Assembly (NCBI GenBank): GCA_024280635.1
Contig: JAJRPS010000095.1
Span: 1 to 46,126 of the forward strand
Origin: Bacteroidota bacterium
GTDB lineage: Bacteria > Bacteroidota > Bacteroidia > Flavobacteriales > Flavobacteriaceae
Reading direction: 5' to 3'
DNA length: 46,126 bases
Positions 1,695 through 43,322 of this stretch are shown here, piece after piece. Positions within the stretch are counted from its first letter, which is position 1. The number at the start of each line of letters is the position of its first letter. The position numbers were made by a program, and so were the translations under genes. The notes under the pieces were generated by a model. That model was not told the origin of the DNA. It searched no databases and worked only from the letters and a program-made list of their open reading frames with translations.

Positions 1695-3404
1695 TTGAAA
1701 AAACATACTTATATCTTATTTTTATTCTCATTGCTATTTGCAATATCTTTTGCTCAAGAGCGTAAAAAAATTAGAGTAACCGCACCGTATTATGATAAAA
1801 ATGAAACAACATTTCCAGGTGCTACCATTTTAACCCGTAATAGTGCCAAACAAATATATATTGAACACGAGGGGATTGAAATGTGGTGTGACAAAGCATA
1901 TCATTATACCAAAGAAGATAGTATCGCTGCTTTCGGAAATGTATTAATTAAACAAGGTGACACTATTAACTTAACCAGTAAAGCAGCCAATTATAGTGGA
2001 AAAACACAACTGGCATTTTGTGCAGGGGATGTTAAATTTACCGAACCAAAATCGACTTTAGACACGGATACCCTATATTTTGATCGCATCAAACAAGAAG
2101 CCTATTACAAAACTGGTGGTGTAGTACATCAAGAAGAAAACATTATTAAAAGTAATATTGGACGGTATTTTATAGACAGTCAAAAATATCAGTTCATCTC
2201 TCAGGTAGATATCAAAAACCCTGAATACACTTTAAAATCGGCACAATTAGATTTTTATTCCAATTCTGGTTTAGCCTATATTTACGGAAAATCAGTAATT
2301 AAACACCAAAATACCACTATCTATTGTGAGCGTGGGTTTTATGACACCAATGCCGATTTAGGTTATTTTGAAAAAAACACTAAAATACATTATCAAAATC
2401 GAGTTTTTGAAGGCGACAGCATGTATTTTAATCAAAAACGAAACTTTGCATCTGCCACCAACAACATCAAAGTTACCGATACCGTAAACCACAGTATCAT
2501 TACGGGGCATTATGCCGAAGTATTTAGAGCTAAAGATTCTGTTTTTATCACCAAAAGAGCATTAGCTAGTATGTTGCAAGAAAAAGATTCCATTTACATA
2601 CACGCCGATACTTTGATGATTACCGGTAAACCTGACAACCGAATTATTAGAGCATTCCATAAAGCAAAACTGTACAAATTAGACATCAATGGTAAGTGTG
2701 ACTCCATACACATCAATCAAAAATTAGGCTTAACAAAGATGATTAAGAATCCCATTTTATGGTCTGGAGAAAGTCAAATGACAGGAGATACTATACAACT
2801 ATACAACAATTTAAAAAGTAACAAACTAGACTCCCTTCGGGTGCATTATCATACTTTTTTAGTCCAAAAAGACAGTATAGAAGGCTATAACCAAGTAAAA
2901 GGAAAAGAATTAGTAGGTTATTTTAATGATGAGAATCAATTGCACAGTGTAGATATTAATAAAAATGCAGAACACCTTCAATACACTCGTAAAGAAAATG
3001 GGGACATGATAGGTATTAACAAAATTGGATCGGCTAAAATCAACATTATTTTTGAAGATAATCAAATGAATGAAATCACCTATTTTGGTGACCCTAGTGG
3101 CGATTTAACTCCCGACTCACAATACCCCCAAAATGCAAGAAAATTAAGAGGGTTCAATTGGCGTGGTGACGAGCGAATTTTATCCGTTCAAGATTTATTT
3201 AAAGATGACCCTCCGTTAATTTTAACGGTTATTAAAGGTATTGAAGGAAGAATTTTAAACGACGAAGATGTTGAAACCCTACAAAATATCACTCCTCAAA
3301 AAAAAGTAATGAAACCGCTTGTTAAAAAAGTAAAAACATTACCAAAAGAGCAAAAGAAAGGAAAACCCCTTATAGAAAAGAAAACTTCTAAAAAAACAAT
3401 TTAA
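1695..3404 (+). CDS. OstA-like (LptA/LptD N-domain) LPS-transport protein
   Basis: This protein is about 569 residues from the TTG at 1695, or 581 from the TTG at 1659. The later start gives a standard signal peptide (MKKHTYILFLF... to SFAQ) and avoids overlap with a TAnnTTTG promoter box. The mature part repeats the beta-jellyroll pattern of OstA proteins: short strands with 'GNVLIKQGDTINLTS', 'AKLYKLD' and 'D-T-L' turns, about residues 30-500. A Lys-rich tail follows. Family knowledge: such proteins act in periplasmic carriage of LPS to the outer membrane. It is followed after 31 bases by a class III aminotransferase, an arrangement common in Flavobacteriia. Confidence 0.85.
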   Translation: MKKHTYILFLFSLLFAISFAQERKKIRVTAPYYDKNETTFPGATILTRNSAKQIYIEHEGIEMWCDKAYHYTKEDSIAAFGNVLIKQGDTINLTSKAANYSGKTQLAFCAGDVKFTEPKSTLDTDTLYFDRIKQEAYYKTGGVVHQEENIIKSNIGRYFIDSQKYQFISQVDIKNPEYTLKSAQLDFYSNSGLAYIYGKSVIKHQNTTIYCERGFYDTNADLGYFEKNTKIHYQNRVFEGDSMYFNQKRNFASATNNIKVTDTVNHSIITGHYAEVFRAKDSVFITKRALASMLQEKDSIYIHADTLMITGKPDNRIIRAFHKAKLYKLDINGKCDSIHINQKLGLTKMIKNPILWSGESQMTGDTIQLYNNLKSNKLDSLRVHYHTFLVQKDSIEGYNQVKGKELVGYFNDENQLHSVDINKNAEHLQYTRKENGDMIGINKIGSAKINIIFEDNQMNEITYFGDPSGDLTPDSQYPQNARKLRGFNWRGDERILSVQDLFKDDPPLILTVIKGIEGRILNDEDVETLQNITPQKKVMKPLVKKVKTLPKEQKKGKPLIEKKTSKKTI

Positions 3405-4787: not shown

Positions 4788-6305
4788 ATGAAAAAATTAA
4801 CACTAAGTATTTTGGCAATGGCATTTATCCTACTTTCGGCAAATGCTCAACAATTCCCTGTAGATGAACAATATCAAAGCACGCCTCCACCTGCTATACC
4901 GGCAATGTCAGATTATGGACAGTCGGTGATTGACAACTCCGTAACTACACCAATAGAAATAACAAGAGTTACAGAAGTTTATAATTATACTGATGGAAAC
5001 GGAAATCCTGCAGTCTGGTACCCAACTCACGAATACTCTAAAGTACAAGTTTGGAATGCTAATCAAACAAAATATAAGATTCGATCTTGGAAAGTATATA
5101 ATGCAACAACATATCAGGAAGAACAGTCTTTATCCAATATGCATCCTGCCTATTGGTCTAATACCAATCCCGATTTAATATGGAGTTTTAGACAAAATGG
5201 TAATATAAAAAAACATTTTGTATCAACAAATACAACCCAGACAGTTGCAACAATTACTAAACCCGATGGAAGTGCTTATGATTATGTAATGTTAGGACCT
5301 GGAGAAGGTAATATTGACAAGAATGACCATTTTGTAGCTCTTGCTTGTAAAGATGGTCAAGATATGGATGTTGTTGTTTTTGATTTACAAACCTTACAAA
5401 TATCCGTCCGTAGAAAATTTGTAGGATGTTGGGGCAATGGAACCCAGGATTTTCCAGATTTTGTAGATTGGGTTTCAATTTCTCAATCAGGAGACTATGT
5501 TGTTATTATGTTTCATAACGCTTTAGGTCAGAACAACTATTATGTAGACCAAGATGGCATCAATCATTATGGTGTCGAAGTTTACCTTACAATGGATATG
5601 GTATCTCTAAGTAGAATTGTAGAATATGGTAATCACGGTGACCTTGGATATGCTGTAGATGGTGATGAAGTTTTGGTTCAGTTTTGGGGTTTGGAAGTTG
5701 GCTCCATTTATATGTATAAATTAAATGGTTCAGGCTCTACTAGAATTGCCGCAAACCCCGACTTTGGAGTATCTGGTCATATATCTTGTAGAAATATCAA
5801 TAGACCAGGTTGGGCTTATGTTACCATTAGTGAACTTGATGAGTCAGCGCAATTAGTAGCTGTAAAACTAGATAACACAAATACTGTAGAACATTTTGGG
5901 CATCATTTTAGTAGTGCACAAAGTTATGCACAAGCCTCTATGGGAACTGCTTCACCTAATGGTGATATAATATGTTTTAAATCAGATTTTGGAACATCTC
6001 CAAATGATGGCGATGTGACTTATAGTTTTTTTGCAAAAGTATCAAATCCTCTAAGCGTTGATGAAGAAGTTTTAACTAGTATAAAAATATATCCAAATCC
6101 AACCTCTAATTATTTAAAAATAGAAAGTAAAACTAATATTACAAGTCTTTCATTTTATAATATAAGAGGTCAAAAAATCAAAGAATTTCCAGTTGAAAAC
6201 ACAAACATCAATACTATTAATATAAATAATTTTGATACTGGTTTTTACTATTTAGAAATCATAACTGAAATGAATAAATATACAAAGAAAATAATTATTA
6301 GATAA
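4788..6305 (+). CDS. Secreted protein with type IX secretion sorting domain, propeller-like
   Basis: A 505-residue protein with an N-terminal signal peptide (about residues 1-20, LSANA-QQF). A central region of about 400 residues has repeated blade-like segments such as HPAYWSNTNPDLIWSF, SISQSGDYVVI, GHISCRNINRPGWAYVTI and SPNGDIICFKSDFG. These suggest a TolB/oligogalacturonate-lyase-like beta-propeller, but I recognise no catalytic motif. The last 75 residues are a classical type A sorting domain (IYPNPTSNYLKIES, YNIRGQKIKE, GFYYLEI, KKIIIR), so the protein should cross the outer membrane by type IX secretion and be surface-attached or released. It sits alone, with no partner gene, and is bordered by cassette-like sites. 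Confidence 0.85.
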   Translation: MKKLTLSILAMAFILLSANAQQFPVDEQYQSTPPPAIPAMSDYGQSVIDNSVTTPIEITRVTEVYNYTDGNGNPAVWYPTHEYSKVQVWNANQTKYKIRSWKVYNATTYQEEQSLSNMHPAYWSNTNPDLIWSFRQNGNIKKHFVSTNTTQTVATITKPDGSAYDYVMLGPGEGNIDKNDHFVALACKDGQDMDVVVFDLQTLQISVRRKFVGCWGNGTQDFPDFVDWVSISQSGDYVVIMFHNALGQNNYYVDQDGINHYGVEVYLTMDMVSLSRIVEYGNHGDLGYAVDGDEVLVQFWGLEVGSIYMYKLNGSGSTRIAANPDFGVSGHISCRNINRPGWAYVTISELDESAQLVAVKLDNTNTVEHFGHHFSSAQSYAQASMGTASPNGDIICFKSDFGTSPNDGDVTYSFFAKVSNPLSVDEEVLTSIKIYPNPTSNYLKIESKTNITSLSFYNIRGQKIKEFPVENTNINTININNFDTGFYYLEIITEMNKYTKKIIIR

Positions 6306-6309
6306 CTAT

Positions 6310-6435
6310 GGCTAACAAAAAATATACGTAATTGCGGTTTTTGTTCTATACCCAAAGTTTCTGTCTTTTATCAAAGTATAGCTCTAAACCAAAAAGTAAG
6401 CGTTTAAAAACCCGCAACTACGTATATTCAAATCG
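6310..6435 (+). other. Fold-back element resembling an integron attC site
   Basis: The left edge GGCTAAC (6310-6316) lies four bases after the type IX gene's stop. Arms 6321-6342 and 6406-6428 form a stem of about 21 pairs with one A-C mismatch and one extra unpaired G on the right arm. A smaller hairpin, CTATAC (6346-6351) with GTATAG (6376-6381), lies inside. TATGGCTAAC (6307-6316) is the exact reverse complement of GTTAGCCATA at 4718-4727, upstream of the gene. This is the layout of an attC site, but the expected right core GTT is GAT (6435-6437) and no integrase is present. A MITE or stable mRNA 3' hairpin is the alternative. Confidence 0.42.
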
Positions 6436-6466
6436 ATAAATAAAATCAGTAAACAATACGGGAGTA

Positions 6467-7366
6467 TTACAGTTTTTTCTCAAATTTCACATATCGTTTT
6501 TTCGCATATTCAAAACCTTCTTTCCACCATTTTGTCATTAATTTTTTCTTGAATACCAAGGCGTTTTCGGTCAATTTTGTTGGAGTATAATATATGTTCA
6601 ATTTTACATTATTATTTTTAGCCGCCAACTTACCAATGGTAATATCGTTTTTTTCTACCTGATCTAATAAATATCCAAACAAGTTCATCATTAATGAAAA
6701 TGGGTTTTGTCCCAACACTTTTTGCCCCTCCATGTTTTCTGACGTCAATACAATGGCATCAATTTCCGTAGCACCACGTAAAATAGCTTCCCGTATAGGC
6801 ACTACGCACCCAAAACCACCGTCGGCATATTCATCTCCATTACGGGTTGTTAATGACATAAAAGGTACGTAATTACAGGAAATCCAAATCCAATCGCAAA
6901 ATTCTTCATAGGTACAATCGTGTATAGACTTGTATTCTACTCTATTTTTAGATAGGTTGGTTACGGTAATAACAACATCTTCCTTGGTATCTTTTATCTG
7001 CAAAAACTCATCATACGTTACATTTTTTTTAATGCTTTTTCGCAGCGCATTACTTTCTCCAAAAGTTCTTTTTAACTTGATAAACTGTATTAATGAATTC
7101 AAAAAGTTTATCGATACAAACTCCCGACCTTCCTTTTTACGAATTATAAACGGATTAATACTAAATATGGTATTTTGGTTTACATTGGTATAGATTTTAT
7201 GCAATTTTGTCAAATTACCTGTCGCCAAATGCGGCAGCAGTAAACTTCCTGTTGACGTACCTAAAAACATATCGTATTCCTTATTTTTTTCTTGCATCAA
7301 ATACTCTGCAACTCCTCCTGCAAATGCTCCTTTACTTCCTCCTCCGCTAATTACTAATGCTTTCAT
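6467..7366 (-). CDS. Patatin-like phospholipase family protein
   Basis: This 299-residue protein has the full patatin hallmark set: the oxyanion-hole loop GGGSKGAF at residues 8-15, the nucleophile elbow GTSTG with Ser38, and the dyad aspartate in ADGGFG (Asp182). No signal peptide is seen, so it is probably cytoplasmic and would hydrolyse acyl esters of phospholipids or related lipids; the true substrate is not evident. The ATG lies 13 bases after the stop of the M1 aminopeptidase gene on the same strand, so the two are probably co-transcribed. Nothing indicates the transmembrane or barrel extensions seen in some secreted patatins. Confidence 0.9.
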   Translation of the reverse strand: MKALVISGGGSKGAFAGGVAEYLMQEKNKEYDMFLGTSTGSLLLPHLATGNLTKLHKIYTNVNQNTIFSINPFIIRKKEGREFVSINFLNSLIQFIKLKRTFGESNALRKSIKKNVTYDEFLQIKDTKEDVVITVTNLSKNRVEYKSIHDCTYEEFCDWIWISCNYVPFMSLTTRNGDEYADGGFGCVVPIREAILRGATEIDAIVLTSENMEGQKVLGQNPFSLMMNLFGYLLDQVEKNDITIGKLAAKNNNVKLNIYYTPTKLTENALVFKKKLMTKWWKEGFEYAKKRYVKFEKKL

Positions 7367-7379
7367 TTTTATTTGTTTT

Positions 7380-9332
7380 TCACTTATTTATTTCCAATTC
7401 TTTTTTTAATGCGACTGCAAATTTTTTAAATCGCCAATTGTGATGATGTGTAGCTTCCTCTAAATTTATCAAAACCTCATCATTTGTAAAATGCATTAGT
7501 TTTAAATAATCAAAGGCATTTTTACGTACCTCAAAATGATATTTTGGAGCGGTGTAGGCTATCAATTCTTGCACTCTTTCGTTTATAAATTGATGCTCAT
7601 AATTTTTAGTAGAAAGTGCTAACGCTAACCACAACGTCCTTACATTTTTGTCATTAAAACCAATGATTCCTTTTGTTTGGTTTAAATATTTTTTTCTATC
7701 ATCAGGAAACTGCACCCACAATTTGAACAATGCATTTTCAATTGTTTGATAGGATTTATCACTTAAAAGCGATTCAAAATTAGATTTTAATACTAGTGGA
7801 ATCTCCTTAATAACTTCTGATAATGTTTGCCTAACTTTAATACTACTACCGAAAGCTTTTTTGTAGCTTTTTATCTTTTTAGATAACGGTATTACCGAAT
7901 CACTTGCGATGTTTTTCAACACTTCCTCTTGTAATAATTCAGATTGATTTTTACAATACTTTATAGGGTGTTTTAGTATCTTCCGAAGCGTTTTATTTTT
8001 TTGTAAAGATTTTTTTGCTATTTGATAAGGGAAAACCTCATCTTGCAACCAAAGCTTTTCAAAGGCATCTAAATTAGTTTTTGAATTTTGTTTTACGATT
8101 GTAAAAAAATCAGTTGTTTGTACATTTTGAAACGAATATTTTTTCAAATATTGAGCAACACTTTTTTGAAAAGCCTTATCGCCAATCAACTCCCGAAGCA
8201 CATGCAATACCCACGCTCCTTTTTTATAAAACACCAAGCTACTGGCTTTTGGGTTTAACAATTTTGTTTTTTTCTGATTTTTTAGTGCTACTGCTGATTG
8301 GTATAATTTATAATAGTAATCATCTTCTCCAAATACTTCTCTTTCTGCTAATAAAGCATAATACGTAGCAAAACCTTCTTGCAACCAATGGTGCTTTCCT
8401 GAAGTGGCAGTAACCAAATCACCAAACCATTGATGTGCCAATTCATGAGCATTTACGTTTACATAATTTTCATCTATAAAAGCGACTTCATCTATTACAA
8501 AAGCATCAGAAAATAATGTACAACTGGTATTTTCCATTCCTGCATATAAAAAATCTTTTACGGGTACTTGCTTGTAATTTTGCCACGGATAAGCGACTCC
8601 TATTTCTTGTTCAAAAAAATCAAATATTTTTTTAGTATATCGATATGTTGAAGCTACTTTAGTTTCATCTTCTGGATAATAATACTGTCCCAACGCTTTC
8701 CCTGAAGCTGATTTTTTTAATTTCTTATTATATTTTCCAATAGCAAAAGCAACTAAATAACTACTCATTGGCTCTTGCATATCATATTGCCATTTTACCA
8801 AAGTGTCATTTACTTTTTCTTTTTTAATCAATTTTCCGTTTGCAATTATCTGATATTCTTTTTGAAAGGATATGGATAAATCATACACTATTTTATCATT
8901 CACATCATCAATACTAGGTAACCAATTGGAAGTATATTTCCCCTGTCCTTGTGTCCATACTTGATTTTTCCCTTCATTTTTCCAACCAATAAAATATACT
9001 GCTCTTTTAGGTTTAGCTTCATATTGTATACTCAATTTATTATTTTCTGATACTTGAAAATTGGTTAGTAACCATAATTTATTATCGGAAACAGCATAAG
9101 TAACTTTTTCCTTGTTTAAAAGAATTGCAAACGGGTGTACATTTTTCCTAATATCTAAATAAATAGAATCCGTAGCCTTTAAAACATCAAAGGTGTATTG
9201 TACCGTTCCTGATATTATTTTTTGATACGGATTAATAGTAATATCTACCGTAGCCGTTTTAAAATCAACCACATTTGTTTGTTGTGCAAAATTAAAAAAA
9301 ATACAAAATTGAAAAAATAAAATTACCCTCAT
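7380..9332 (-). CDS. M1 family metallo-aminopeptidase, secreted
   Basis: A 650-residue gluzincin peptidase. The zinc site HELAHQW near residues 296-302 is followed 18 residues later by the third ligand Glu in LQEGFATYY, the exact M1 spacing, and the substrate exopeptidase motif appears as GMENTSC. The N-terminus (MRVILFF...FNFAQQ) is a short signal peptide, so the enzyme should act in the periplasm or at the cell surface. It has the beta-sandwich N-domain, catalytic domain and a helical C-terminal region. No type IX sorting domain is visible. It appears to lead a two-gene unit with the patatin gene. The start ATG at 9332 fits the signal peptide. Confidence 0.93.
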   Translation of the reverse strand: MRVILFFQFCIFFNFAQQTNVVDFKTATVDITINPYQKIISGTVQYTFDVLKATDSIYLDIRKNVHPFAILLNKEKVTYAVSDNKLWLLTNFQVSENNKLSIQYEAKPKRAVYFIGWKNEGKNQVWTQGQGKYTSNWLPSIDDVNDKIVYDLSISFQKEYQIIANGKLIKKEKVNDTLVKWQYDMQEPMSSYLVAFAIGKYNKKLKKSASGKALGQYYYPEDETKVASTYRYTKKIFDFFEQEIGVAYPWQNYKQVPVKDFLYAGMENTSCTLFSDAFVIDEVAFIDENYVNVNAHELAHQWFGDLVTATSGKHHWLQEGFATYYALLAEREVFGEDDYYYKLYQSAVALKNQKKTKLLNPKASSLVFYKKGAWVLHVLRELIGDKAFQKSVAQYLKKYSFQNVQTTDFFTIVKQNSKTNLDAFEKLWLQDEVFPYQIAKKSLQKNKTLRKILKHPIKYCKNQSELLQEEVLKNIASDSVIPLSKKIKSYKKAFGSSIKVRQTLSEVIKEIPLVLKSNFESLLSDKSYQTIENALFKLWVQFPDDRKKYLNQTKGIIGFNDKNVRTLWLALALSTKNYEHQFINERVQELIAYTAPKYHFEVRKNAFDYLKLMHFTNDEVLINLEEATHHHNWRFKKFAVALKKELEINK

Positions 9333-40910: not shown

Positions 40911-42773
40911 TTATAATAATTTTTTATCGAAATCTGTTGTAGAATAGGTGATGAAAATTGGTTTATTTGTAGGTGAAACTGTTGGTTCCTTACATGCAAA
41001 CAATCTGTTTACCATATTTTCTTGTTCTTGATTATTCATTTTTTTACCACTTTTTATTGCTAGTGACTTTGCTAATGATTTTGCCACCAAAGTAGCGTGT
41101 AAACTTTCGGTAGTGATGGTTTCTTGTGCTGCTGTAGCCAACAAATCTGTTATAATAATAGTGGCATTATCATTGGTTATACTTACGGGCACTCCACTAA
41201 TTTCTACCGTTTCATCTGCTATTTTAGAAAATATAAAACCGGTACTTTCTAAAACCGATTGCACCTCTTTTAAAAATGATATTTCTGACGGAGTTACGTT
41301 TATTTTTTCTGGAAATAATAGCTGCTGACTTACTGCCTCATTAATGGTAATGTGTTGTAAAAACTCTTCAAACAAAATACGTTCATGTGCACGGTGTTGG
41401 TTAATTACCATCACTCCATTTTTAATTTTACTAATGATGTATTTATTTTGAATTTGAAGCGTTATTTGTTCTTGAGTAATGGCGTCATCTTCAAAAAAAG
41501 AACCTGTAGTTTCCTCCGATTCAAAAGACATGGTTACCTCATCTGTTGCTGGCATTGCCATTTTAGAGTCTAACCCTACATATAAAGCTTCCCAGTTTTC
41601 TGTAGTTTTTTTAGGATAACTTTTACTCACAAATCCTTTATTTTTTGAAGCACTCCTTACCTCATTAGCAAAGGGATTAAAACTTCTATCTACCTCTATT
41701 GTTGGTGCTGAAACATTTTTTTGATGATGTGCGTATGGCGTGTCCATACTTGCATCTCGCTGAAAATCTAATATGGGTGCAATTTGAAACTGCCCTAAAC
41801 TGTGTTTTACAGCCGAACGAATAATGGCATATAAATCATGTTCATTATCAAATTTAATTTCCGTTTTAGTAGGATGTATATTAATATCTATCGTTTTCGG
41901 ATCTACTTGTAATTTTAAAAAATACCCTGGATATGCTTTATCTTTTAACAAGCCTTCAAAAGCTGCGGTTACCGCATGATTTAAATAAGCGCTTTTAATA
42001 AAACGATCGTTTACAAAAAAGAATTGTTCTCCTCTGCTTCGCTTTGCAAATTCTGGCTTTAACACAAAACCTGTTATTTTCACTATTTCGGTATCTTCAT
42101 TTACAGGTACTAATTTTTCATTGGCTTTTTTACCAAAAACAGCAACAATACGCTGTCTAAAATTACTACTTCGCAATTCATACACATCACTACCATTATG
42201 ATACATGGAGAATGCAATATCAGGATGCACTAGTGCTACCCGTTGAAACTCGTCCATGATATGACGCATTTCTACTTGATCTGATTTTAAAAAATTACGG
42301 CGTGCGGGAATATTAAAAAATAAATTTTTAACCGCTATTGATGATCCTTTTGGAGTAACTACATTTTCTTGACTGGTAACCTGACTTCCTTCTATTTTAA
42401 TAAGTGTTCCCAGCTCATCTTCATCTCGTTTAGTCTTAAGCTCTACGTGCGCAATGGCTGCAATTGATGCTAATGCCTCTCCTCGAAATCCTTTAGTATT
42501 AAGTTGAAACAAATCTTCTGCTGATGAAATTTTTGAAGTTGCATGACGTTCAAAGGACAGACGAGCATCGGTAACACTCATTCCTGTACCATTATCAATT
42601 ACTTGCACTAAGGTTTTACCTGCTTCTTTTACTAGTAATTGAATGTGTGTAGCTTTTGCGTCTATCGCATTTTCTAACAATTCTTTTACCACAGATGCTG
42701 GACGTTGTACTACTTCACCCGCTGCAATTTGATTGGCAACATGATCGGGTAATAATTGTATGATATCTGACAT
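40911..42773 (-). CDS. mutL: DNA mismatch repair protein MutL
   Basis: 620 residues. The GHKL ATPase half is complete: ELLENAIDAKATHI, QVIDNGTGM, TKGFRGEALASI and GSSIAVKNLFFNIPARR. The C-terminal dimer domain contains VMVINQHRAHERILFEEF where endonuclease-type MutL has DQHAxxExxxxE; here Asp is Asn, and the late Cys-His motif appears as ACKEPTVSPTNKP without the His. Nuclease activity is therefore doubtful, although the fold is intact. Its ATG overlaps the stop of a 97-residue membrane protein gene that holds an A7G9 tract (TAATG), so MutL translation may depend on that upstream frame. Confidence 0.95.
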   Translation of the reverse strand: MSDIIQLLPDHVANQIAAGEVVQRPASVVKELLENAIDAKATHIQLLVKEAGKTLVQVIDNGTGMSVTDARLSFERHATSKISSAEDLFQLNTKGFRGEALASIAAIAHVELKTKRDEDELGTLIKIEGSQVTSQENVVTPKGSSIAVKNLFFNIPARRNFLKSDQVEMRHIMDEFQRVALVHPDIAFSMYHNGSDVYELRSSNFRQRIVAVFGKKANEKLVPVNEDTEIVKITGFVLKPEFAKRSRGEQFFFVNDRFIKSAYLNHAVTAAFEGLLKDKAYPGYFLKLQVDPKTIDINIHPTKTEIKFDNEHDLYAIIRSAVKHSLGQFQIAPILDFQRDASMDTPYAHHQKNVSAPTIEVDRSFNPFANEVRSASKNKGFVSKSYPKKTTENWEALYVGLDSKMAMPATDEVTMSFESEETTGSFFEDDAITQEQITLQIQNKYIISKIKNGVMVINQHRAHERILFEEFLQHITINEAVSQQLLFPEKINVTPSEISFLKEVQSVLESTGFIFSKIADETVEISGVPVSITNDNATIIITDLLATAAQETITTESLHATLVAKSLAKSLAIKSGKKMNNQEQENMVNRLFACKEPTVSPTNKPIFITYSTTDFDKKLL

Positions 42774-43066
42774 TAAAACAATTTGATGTTATATTTTCCT
42801 AAAACTAAGTAAGCTATGATAGATAGTAAAACAATAATAATTAATATTCTAAAATTTGATTTTTTAGTTTCTGTAGTTTTATTTACTGCTTTCCAGTCAT
42901 CTTTAAATGAAATTTTGCGTTGAAAATTACTGTTAGCCCCCCCCCTTTTTTTACCATGATGTTTTTCATGCAATGCCTGCAAACGCTCTTTACGCTCATT
43001 ATAATAACGTGCTTGATACCCGTAGGTTTTATTTTTGGTTTGCTTAAATAATGTTGGTAAACGCAT
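42773..43066 (-). CDS. Small basic single-pass membrane protein with A7G9 tract
   Basis: 97 residues: a basic cytoplasmic half (KTYGYQARYYNERKERLQALHEKHHGKKRGG) and one membrane helix at about residues 74-91. Similar flavobacterial proteins are sometimes labelled 'riboflavin synthase subunit beta', but nothing here resembles that enzyme. Codons 41-46 are encoded by AAAAAAA followed by nine G, an outstanding homopolymer in this AT-rich DNA. Loss of one G gives a stop 18 codons later; gain of one G gives a stop at once; both remove the helix. The stop overlaps the mutL start. Confidence 0.85.
   Translation of the reverse strand: MRLPTLFKQTKNKTYGYQARYYNERKERLQALHEKHHGKKRGGANSNFQRKISFKDDWKAVNKTTETKKSNFRILIIIVLLSIIAYLVLGKYNIKLF
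42937..42952 (-). repeat. A7-G9 biphasic homopolymer tract (candidate contingency site)
   Basis: Plus strand C9 (42937-42945) then T7 (42946-42952), inside the 97-residue membrane protein gene. It is the longest G/C homopolymer I see in the window, and single-base changes switch the reading frame. Confidence 0.95.
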
Positions 43067-43162
43067 AAAATATTTTATTCTTTATAAAAAAAGTATCTTA
43101 ATAATTAGTTTAACGAAGCAATATACTCGAAATTCAAAAATAATCATTTTAACTCAAAAAGC

Positions 43163-43204
43163 AATACATGTAACTGTTAATAGTTGTTAACAGTTACATG
43201 TATT
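43163..43204. terminator. 18-bp perfect hairpin downstream of the FabH-like gene
   Basis: AATACATGTAACTGTTAA (43163-43180) and its exact complement (43187-43204) enclose TAGTTG. A5 lies just before and T7 just after on the plus strand, so it resembles a bidirectional terminator, but it lies about 120 bases after the stop. The intervening DNA has further weak hairpins (GCGTTAAAACGC; ACACA/TGTGT). Confidence 0.7.
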
Positions 43205-43322
43205 ACTTTTTTTGCGTTAGCACGTAAACGGATTGTCCTTTTTACACATCATATTGTGTTTAAAAAAGACAGCAATTGTAGTGCGTTAAAACGCCCATGT
43301 TAAATATTTTGCAATACCTAAA

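Follow-up and report, generated by a model that had tools for sequence, protein, structure and literature searches.

A G9 tract in the gene preceding mutL of a Flavobacteriaceae bacterium is probably an incidental slippage-prone homopolymer and not a selected mutator switch

Introduction

Can a homopolymer in one gene switch the mutation rate through the repair gene that follows it? The question is raised by a locus of a Flavobacteriaceae bacterium in which a long run of G lies within a small gene whose stop codon overlaps the mutL start. Repeat-based switches of repair genes exist: slippage of 6-bp GCTGGC tandem repeats switches alleles of Salmonella mutL (PMC2955026), and a review (PMC8875331) describes a homonucleotide-tract frameshift in H. 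pylori mutY that modulates repair, as well as an S. pyogenes mutL that is under prophage control. A first-pass annotation of the locus had noted that long G tracts slip during replication and that MutL repairs such slips. Slippage is more frequent in longer homopolymers and where mismatch repair is lost; indel rates climb with homopolymer length, and single-base homopolymer indels dominate in mutS-deleted Vibrio (PMC5854121).

The same annotation proposed that the tract is a self-reinforcing mutator switch. In its full form, this would be a species-specific poly-G device in which slippage uncouples mutL, MutL falls, mutation rises and back-slippage restores repair. We analyzed the locus within its window (the whole stretch of 46,126 nucleotides), within its genome and against related Flavobacteriaceae. 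The evidence points to a different reading: G9 is likely to be an incidental, slippage-prone homopolymer, which would make a fragile site upstream of mutL without having been selected as a switch.

Results

Anatomy of the tract and the overlap

An A7-G9 tract in a 97-codon gene and a TAATG overlap between that gene and mutL had both been described in the first-pass annotation, and both are borne out by the sequence. The features are as follows.

42937..42945, minus strand: G9 homopolymer in the small gene, spanning codons 41-44 (aGG GGG GGG Gct)
42946..42952, minus strand: A7 run, directly 5' of G9 on the coding strand
42773..43066, minus strand: small gene for a 97-aa single-helix protein, kept immediately ahead of mutL across Flavobacteriaceae
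42771..42775, minus strand: TAATG stop/start overlap of the small gene and mutL
40911..42773, minus strand: mutL, 620 aa, intact (TIGR00585, E 3.6e-148)

Across the tract the minus strand reads GGT AAA AAA AGG GGG GGG GCT, and codons 39-44 of the small gene are AAA AAA AGG GGG GGG GCT. The small-gene stop TAA (42775-42773) and the mutL ATG (42773-42771) have one base in common. The length of the A7 run is ordinary for this genome, with 40 A7 and 35 T7 runs in the window.

A conserved small protein precedes mutL

The small gene immediately precedes mutL in 91/91 Flavobacteriaceae loci, made up of the window and 90 homologous loci (L002-L031 and L059-L118); 90 of the 91 were read by script and one (L103) by eye. 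The distance from the small-gene stop to the mutL start is -1 in 51 of the 90 loci measured and ranges from -8 to +17 across all 90. As judged from this gene order, the architecture of small gene plus mutL is real and old. The genus itself is placed near Kordia, and the three congeners used here are Kordia-like. A single-sequence query matched the small protein in 214 of the 397 genomes of its family, and neither the protein nor its relatives fall into a Pfam or NCBIfam family. Across genome contigs, a single-sequence scan for the small protein gave no match, whereas an alignment-based scan did.

An alignment of 28 sequences contains invariant or near-invariant residues that include Y17, P19, R20, Y21, Y22, R25, E27, R28, W58, R73, I77 and L81. 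The AlphaFold2 model (mean pLDDT 72.5, pTM 0.30) has two helices, at residues 24-37 and 54-91, with a disordered linker between them, and the tract-bearing linker is the part predicted with the lowest confidence. A hydrophobic stretch lies at about residues 74-90, with 73 residues ahead of it that contain 20 K/R versus 6 D/E and only 7 residues after it. By the positive-inside rule, the N-terminal bulk of the protein is probably cytoplasmic. Given this charge distribution, the small protein would be mostly cytoplasmic and not surface-facing, and its earlier description as a surface-facing protein is unsupported. Selection for slippage-prone A runs in the small-gene family was also considered and found unconvincing, because A runs of at least seven occur in 29 of the 90 family genes versus 24.4 (sd 3.0) in synonymous shuffles.

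Slippage by one base truncates the small protein

Tract lengths from G6 to G12 were simulated and the stop codons were read off each frame. G6, G9 and G12 are in frame, and the remaining alleles run into one of two stops.

42883..42885, minus strand: TAA reached by the G8 allele, 109 nt before the mutL ATG
42933..42935, minus strand: TAA reached by the G10 allele, 159 nt before the mutL ATG

The G11 allele ends at the same stop as G8, and the G7 allele at the same stop as G10. Both G8 and G10 truncate the small protein ahead of the membrane helix, in agreement with the frame check of the first-pass annotation. Its further statement that translation would end more than 130 bases before the mutL start holds for G10 and fails for G8.

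Since this is a draft genome of 102 contigs and homopolymers are error-prone, the exact tract length could in principle be an artefact of assembly or sequencing. We consider this extremely unlikely. An open frame continues into the conserved residues of the C terminus and through them, which fixes the length at 9 modulo 3, and there were no frameshifts among 135 open reading frames (ORFs) of the congener G003 that were aligned to the genome.

The tract is missing from relatives

If the tract were a maintained switch, homologous genes might keep it, but none of the relatives read does so. Absence from close relatives is one half of what the first-pass annotation had itself set against its proposal, and that half is borne out here. 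The small gene has no G run of at least six in any of the 90 other Flavobacteriaceae loci (0/90, three congeners included), where the second-longest G run among the loci read is five. The same gene has no G or C run of at least six in 80 loci of named records (0/80), a set that partly overlaps the first. At the tract position, the three congeners read GCT AAA GAC GGT ACT, ACT AAA GAA GCT ACT and GCA AAA GAC GCA ACT. The tract encodes residues 41-44 and lies in the most variable, gap-rich stretch of the aligned protein (residues 38-50). All 91 homologous small genes read are in frame. This species was represented by one genome, and its small protein shares about 61% identity with that of the nearest congener; at this resolution, the sequence comparison places the tract as private to this lineage.

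The tract length fits chance

Expected numbers of G/C runs were taken from a first-order Markov model whose parameters came from 1.32 Mb of this genome. Over the whole 1.91-Mb assembly, which is about 80% complete, one G/C run of at least nine was observed and 1.0 was expected, and three runs of at least eight were observed against 5.1 expected. The single run of at least nine is the G9 upstream of mutL, and the other two are G8. By these counts the genome is without G/C-run enrichment. Within the window there is no other G or C run longer than six, and shuffling the window seldom produces a G8 match (mean 0.14). With RGG fixed, the probability of all-G codons under the codon usage of the window is about 0.001, which argues that G9 is a homopolymer event and not a by-product of codon preference. 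It is unlikely in itself, and counts against the incidental reading, that the sole G9 of the genome should fall inside a gene of roughly 300 bp (about 0.015% of the sequence), though this coincidence was spotted post hoc. Elsewhere in the genus, G8-G9 runs are found in ordinary genes or outside long ORFs, and a G9 of G003 sits in an exopolyphosphatase-like gene (gene names judged from translations). G/C runs of at least eight number four in G003 and about thirteen in the 3.7 Mb of the congener G001, the highest count in the four genomes of the genus.

A contingency locus is recognized by a slippable repeat whose unit changes the frame, by a tract whose length or number exceeds the prediction from base composition, and by retention of the repeat in related species. 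The first of these describes G9, where gain or loss of one base truncates the protein, and the tract is within the mutable coding G/C-run lengths of other bacteria (7-9C, PMC5854121). A plain contingency locus would use such slippage to toggle the small membrane protein, with any effect on mutL being secondary. We regard this reading as distinctly unlikely, and G9 is not classed as a contingency locus, because the repeat is kept in 0 of the 90 other loci and is neither longer nor commoner than composition predicts. Moreover, an intact reading frame is seen at every one of the 91 loci, and a protein that looks mostly cytoplasmic is unlike typical phase-variable products.

Translation of mutL may depend on the small gene

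Two features upstream of the small gene bear on the transcription of mutL.

43160..43207, both directions: terminator-like hairpin separating the small gene from the ACP synthase III (FabH-like) gene (three found, 0.3 expected)
43135..43164, minus strand: putative promoter of the Bacteroidetes type, TTG-N19-TATTTTTG, ahead of the small gene (pattern match only)

The hairpin at 43160-43207 is a near-perfect inverted repeat with T runs on either side and is likely a bidirectional terminator. Its position suggests that the transcription unit of mutL begins with the small gene. The Bacteroidetes-type promoter consensus has the full form TAnnTTTG, and no full match to it occurs between the candidate promoter and the mutL ATG. 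Because the hairpin is upstream and the only full TAnnTTTG match of this stretch precedes the small gene, mutL is probably co-transcribed with it.

Gene pairs with -1 or -4 overlaps show tight termination-reinitiation coupling (PMC6728339, PMC10666635). In six gene pairs, reinitiation is nearly gone once stop and start are about 20 nt apart (PMC10666635), and premature upstream stops abolish downstream translation in 9/9 H. volcanii pairs and in most of five E. coli pairs, one E. coli pair being wholly uncoupled (PMC10666635, PMC6728339). The present locus is like these pairs in its short overlap, with the -1 spacing present in 51 of 90 loci, and a premature stop in the upstream gene would here, too, clear the junction of ribosomes. 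It differs in that the published pairs belong to E. coli and H. volcanii and were measured by reporter assay, whereas this Bacteroidetes pair is known from sequence. Bacteroidetes rely little on Shine-Dalgarno motifs (PMC6728339); this, together with the uncoupled E. coli pair, means that coupling should not be assumed here. RNA structure at the mutL start shows no excess (z 0.42; mean z 0.48 over 90 loci), and the idea that it serves as a coupling device was dropped. By analogy with the measured pairs, lower MutL in G8 or G10 cells is likely but unproven. Thus, the link to mutL that the first-pass annotation drew is sound in principle, given the conserved -1 overlap and the published pairs (PMC6728339, PMC10666635), but its extension to the tract as a switch does not follow from a private run of chance length.

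The state of mismatch repair in the genome

A mutator switch would call for working mismatch repair in its ON state; with G9 in frame, mutL is intact, but the assembled mutS contains an in-frame TAA. The mutS gene (contig C79 of genome G000, 4885-7440, minus strand) has this one stop (3004-3006 of the reverse complement of locus L121) at a position occupied by a Glu codon in the two congeners with a full mutS. Outside the TAA the gene is undamaged and shares about 83% identity with the mutS of G003. As background, the 135 aligned G003 ORFs cover 45,799 codons, and mutS is the only gene among them with an internal stop that was taken as real. The other internal stops lie in apparent antisense shadow ORFs, as judged by composition, and were set aside. 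The mutS TAA represents either a natural mutS mutator population or one wrong consensus base. A probe for the mutS neighbourhood gave no match in the congeners.

Two further observations concern the repair genes of relatives. In G001 (Kordia sp. NORP58, about 90% complete), full-length MutS1 was not found, which incompleteness could explain. The MutL endonuclease motif DQHA(X)2E(X)4E, at residues about 458-469, has D, N or H in its first position across Flavobacteriaceae (L002-L031). This residue is N in the window and H in all three congeners, and the idea of a broken endonuclease motif, with N for the usual D, was dropped for this reason.

A broken mutS could itself have allowed homopolymers to grow, leaving G9 as a remnant of defective repair. 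The in-frame stop stands out against a clean gene background, and A/T runs of at least nine are slightly denser than in G003 (p=0.04). We nonetheless hold such a scar to be very unlikely. G/C runs are no denser than in G003, whose mutS is intact (p=0.72), or than the Markov expectation, and the two densities together do not indicate a long history without repair. The remainder of mutS is intact, so any loss would be recent, and the TAA could be a consensus error.

The state of mutS also bears on the mutator switch. If the assembly is right and mutS is broken, the mutation rate of this genome could not depend on how much MutL is made, and the feedback loop is moot. The switch draws its appeal from the truncating G8 and G10 frames, the conserved -1 overlap, the near-absence of reinitiation at about 20 nt (PMC10666635) and the precedents in H. 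pylori mutY (PMC8875331) and Salmonella mutL (PMC2955026). Weighed against these are a tract that is missing from every relative read and is of chance length, small genes that are in frame in all 91 loci, and an apparently broken mutS in the same assembly that would make the MutL level irrelevant. In addition, no out-of-frame allele is known, and mutL could be initiated independently (little Shine-Dalgarno use, PMC6728339; z 0.42 at the mutL start). On balance, the self-reinforcing switch appears highly improbable.

Discussion

The reading that we favor, with good though not complete confidence, is that G9 is incidental. The tract would have arisen in one lineage, in a weakly constrained linker of a small membrane protein that is itself conserved, and would slip occasionally, like any G9. 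A cell with G8 or G10 would lose the membrane helix and, with the mutL start probably coupled to the upstream stop, would also be short of much MutL. Slippage would then amount to a rare, mostly deleterious polar loss-of-function mutation that hits MutL, comparable to the slippage mutations already described in repair genes. A counterpoint to this incidental reading is that some effect is to be expected whenever a G9 ahead of a coupled mutL slips.

Comparison with known systems separates what this locus shares with them from what it lacks. Like the Salmonella mutL repeat (PMC2955026), the tract is slippage-prone and may be able to change mismatch-repair capacity; that repeat, however, lies inside mutL, alters MutL and has been tested in strains, whereas this one lies in the preceding gene and would act at most via coupling. 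The H. pylori mutY tract, as reviewed in PMC8875331, matches the proposed mutL switch in that a homopolymer slip shuts a repair function and raises the mutation rate, but it lies within the repair gene; here the effect would be indirect and the tract is not common to relatives. In the poly-G/C contingency loci known from Campylobacter and Neisseria (PMC8355987, PMC5084427), too, +1 or -1 changes in a coding-frame homopolymer truncate the product. Those genomes have many tracts with observed length variants, in contrast to the single G9 and the two G8 runs found here, whose number fits chance.

A coupled upstream tract, if it worked, would be a new arrangement of the known principle of repair slippage, and a true switch would be a self-amplifying control of mutation rate located outside the repair gene. 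Independently of the tract, a conserved small membrane protein without a family name overlaps mutL across Flavobacteriaceae, and its possible coupling to mutL is testable in laboratory species. Frameshifts in the small gene may be hidden mutL mutations, and the possible nonsense allele of mutS hints that an environmental bacterium may be a natural mutator.
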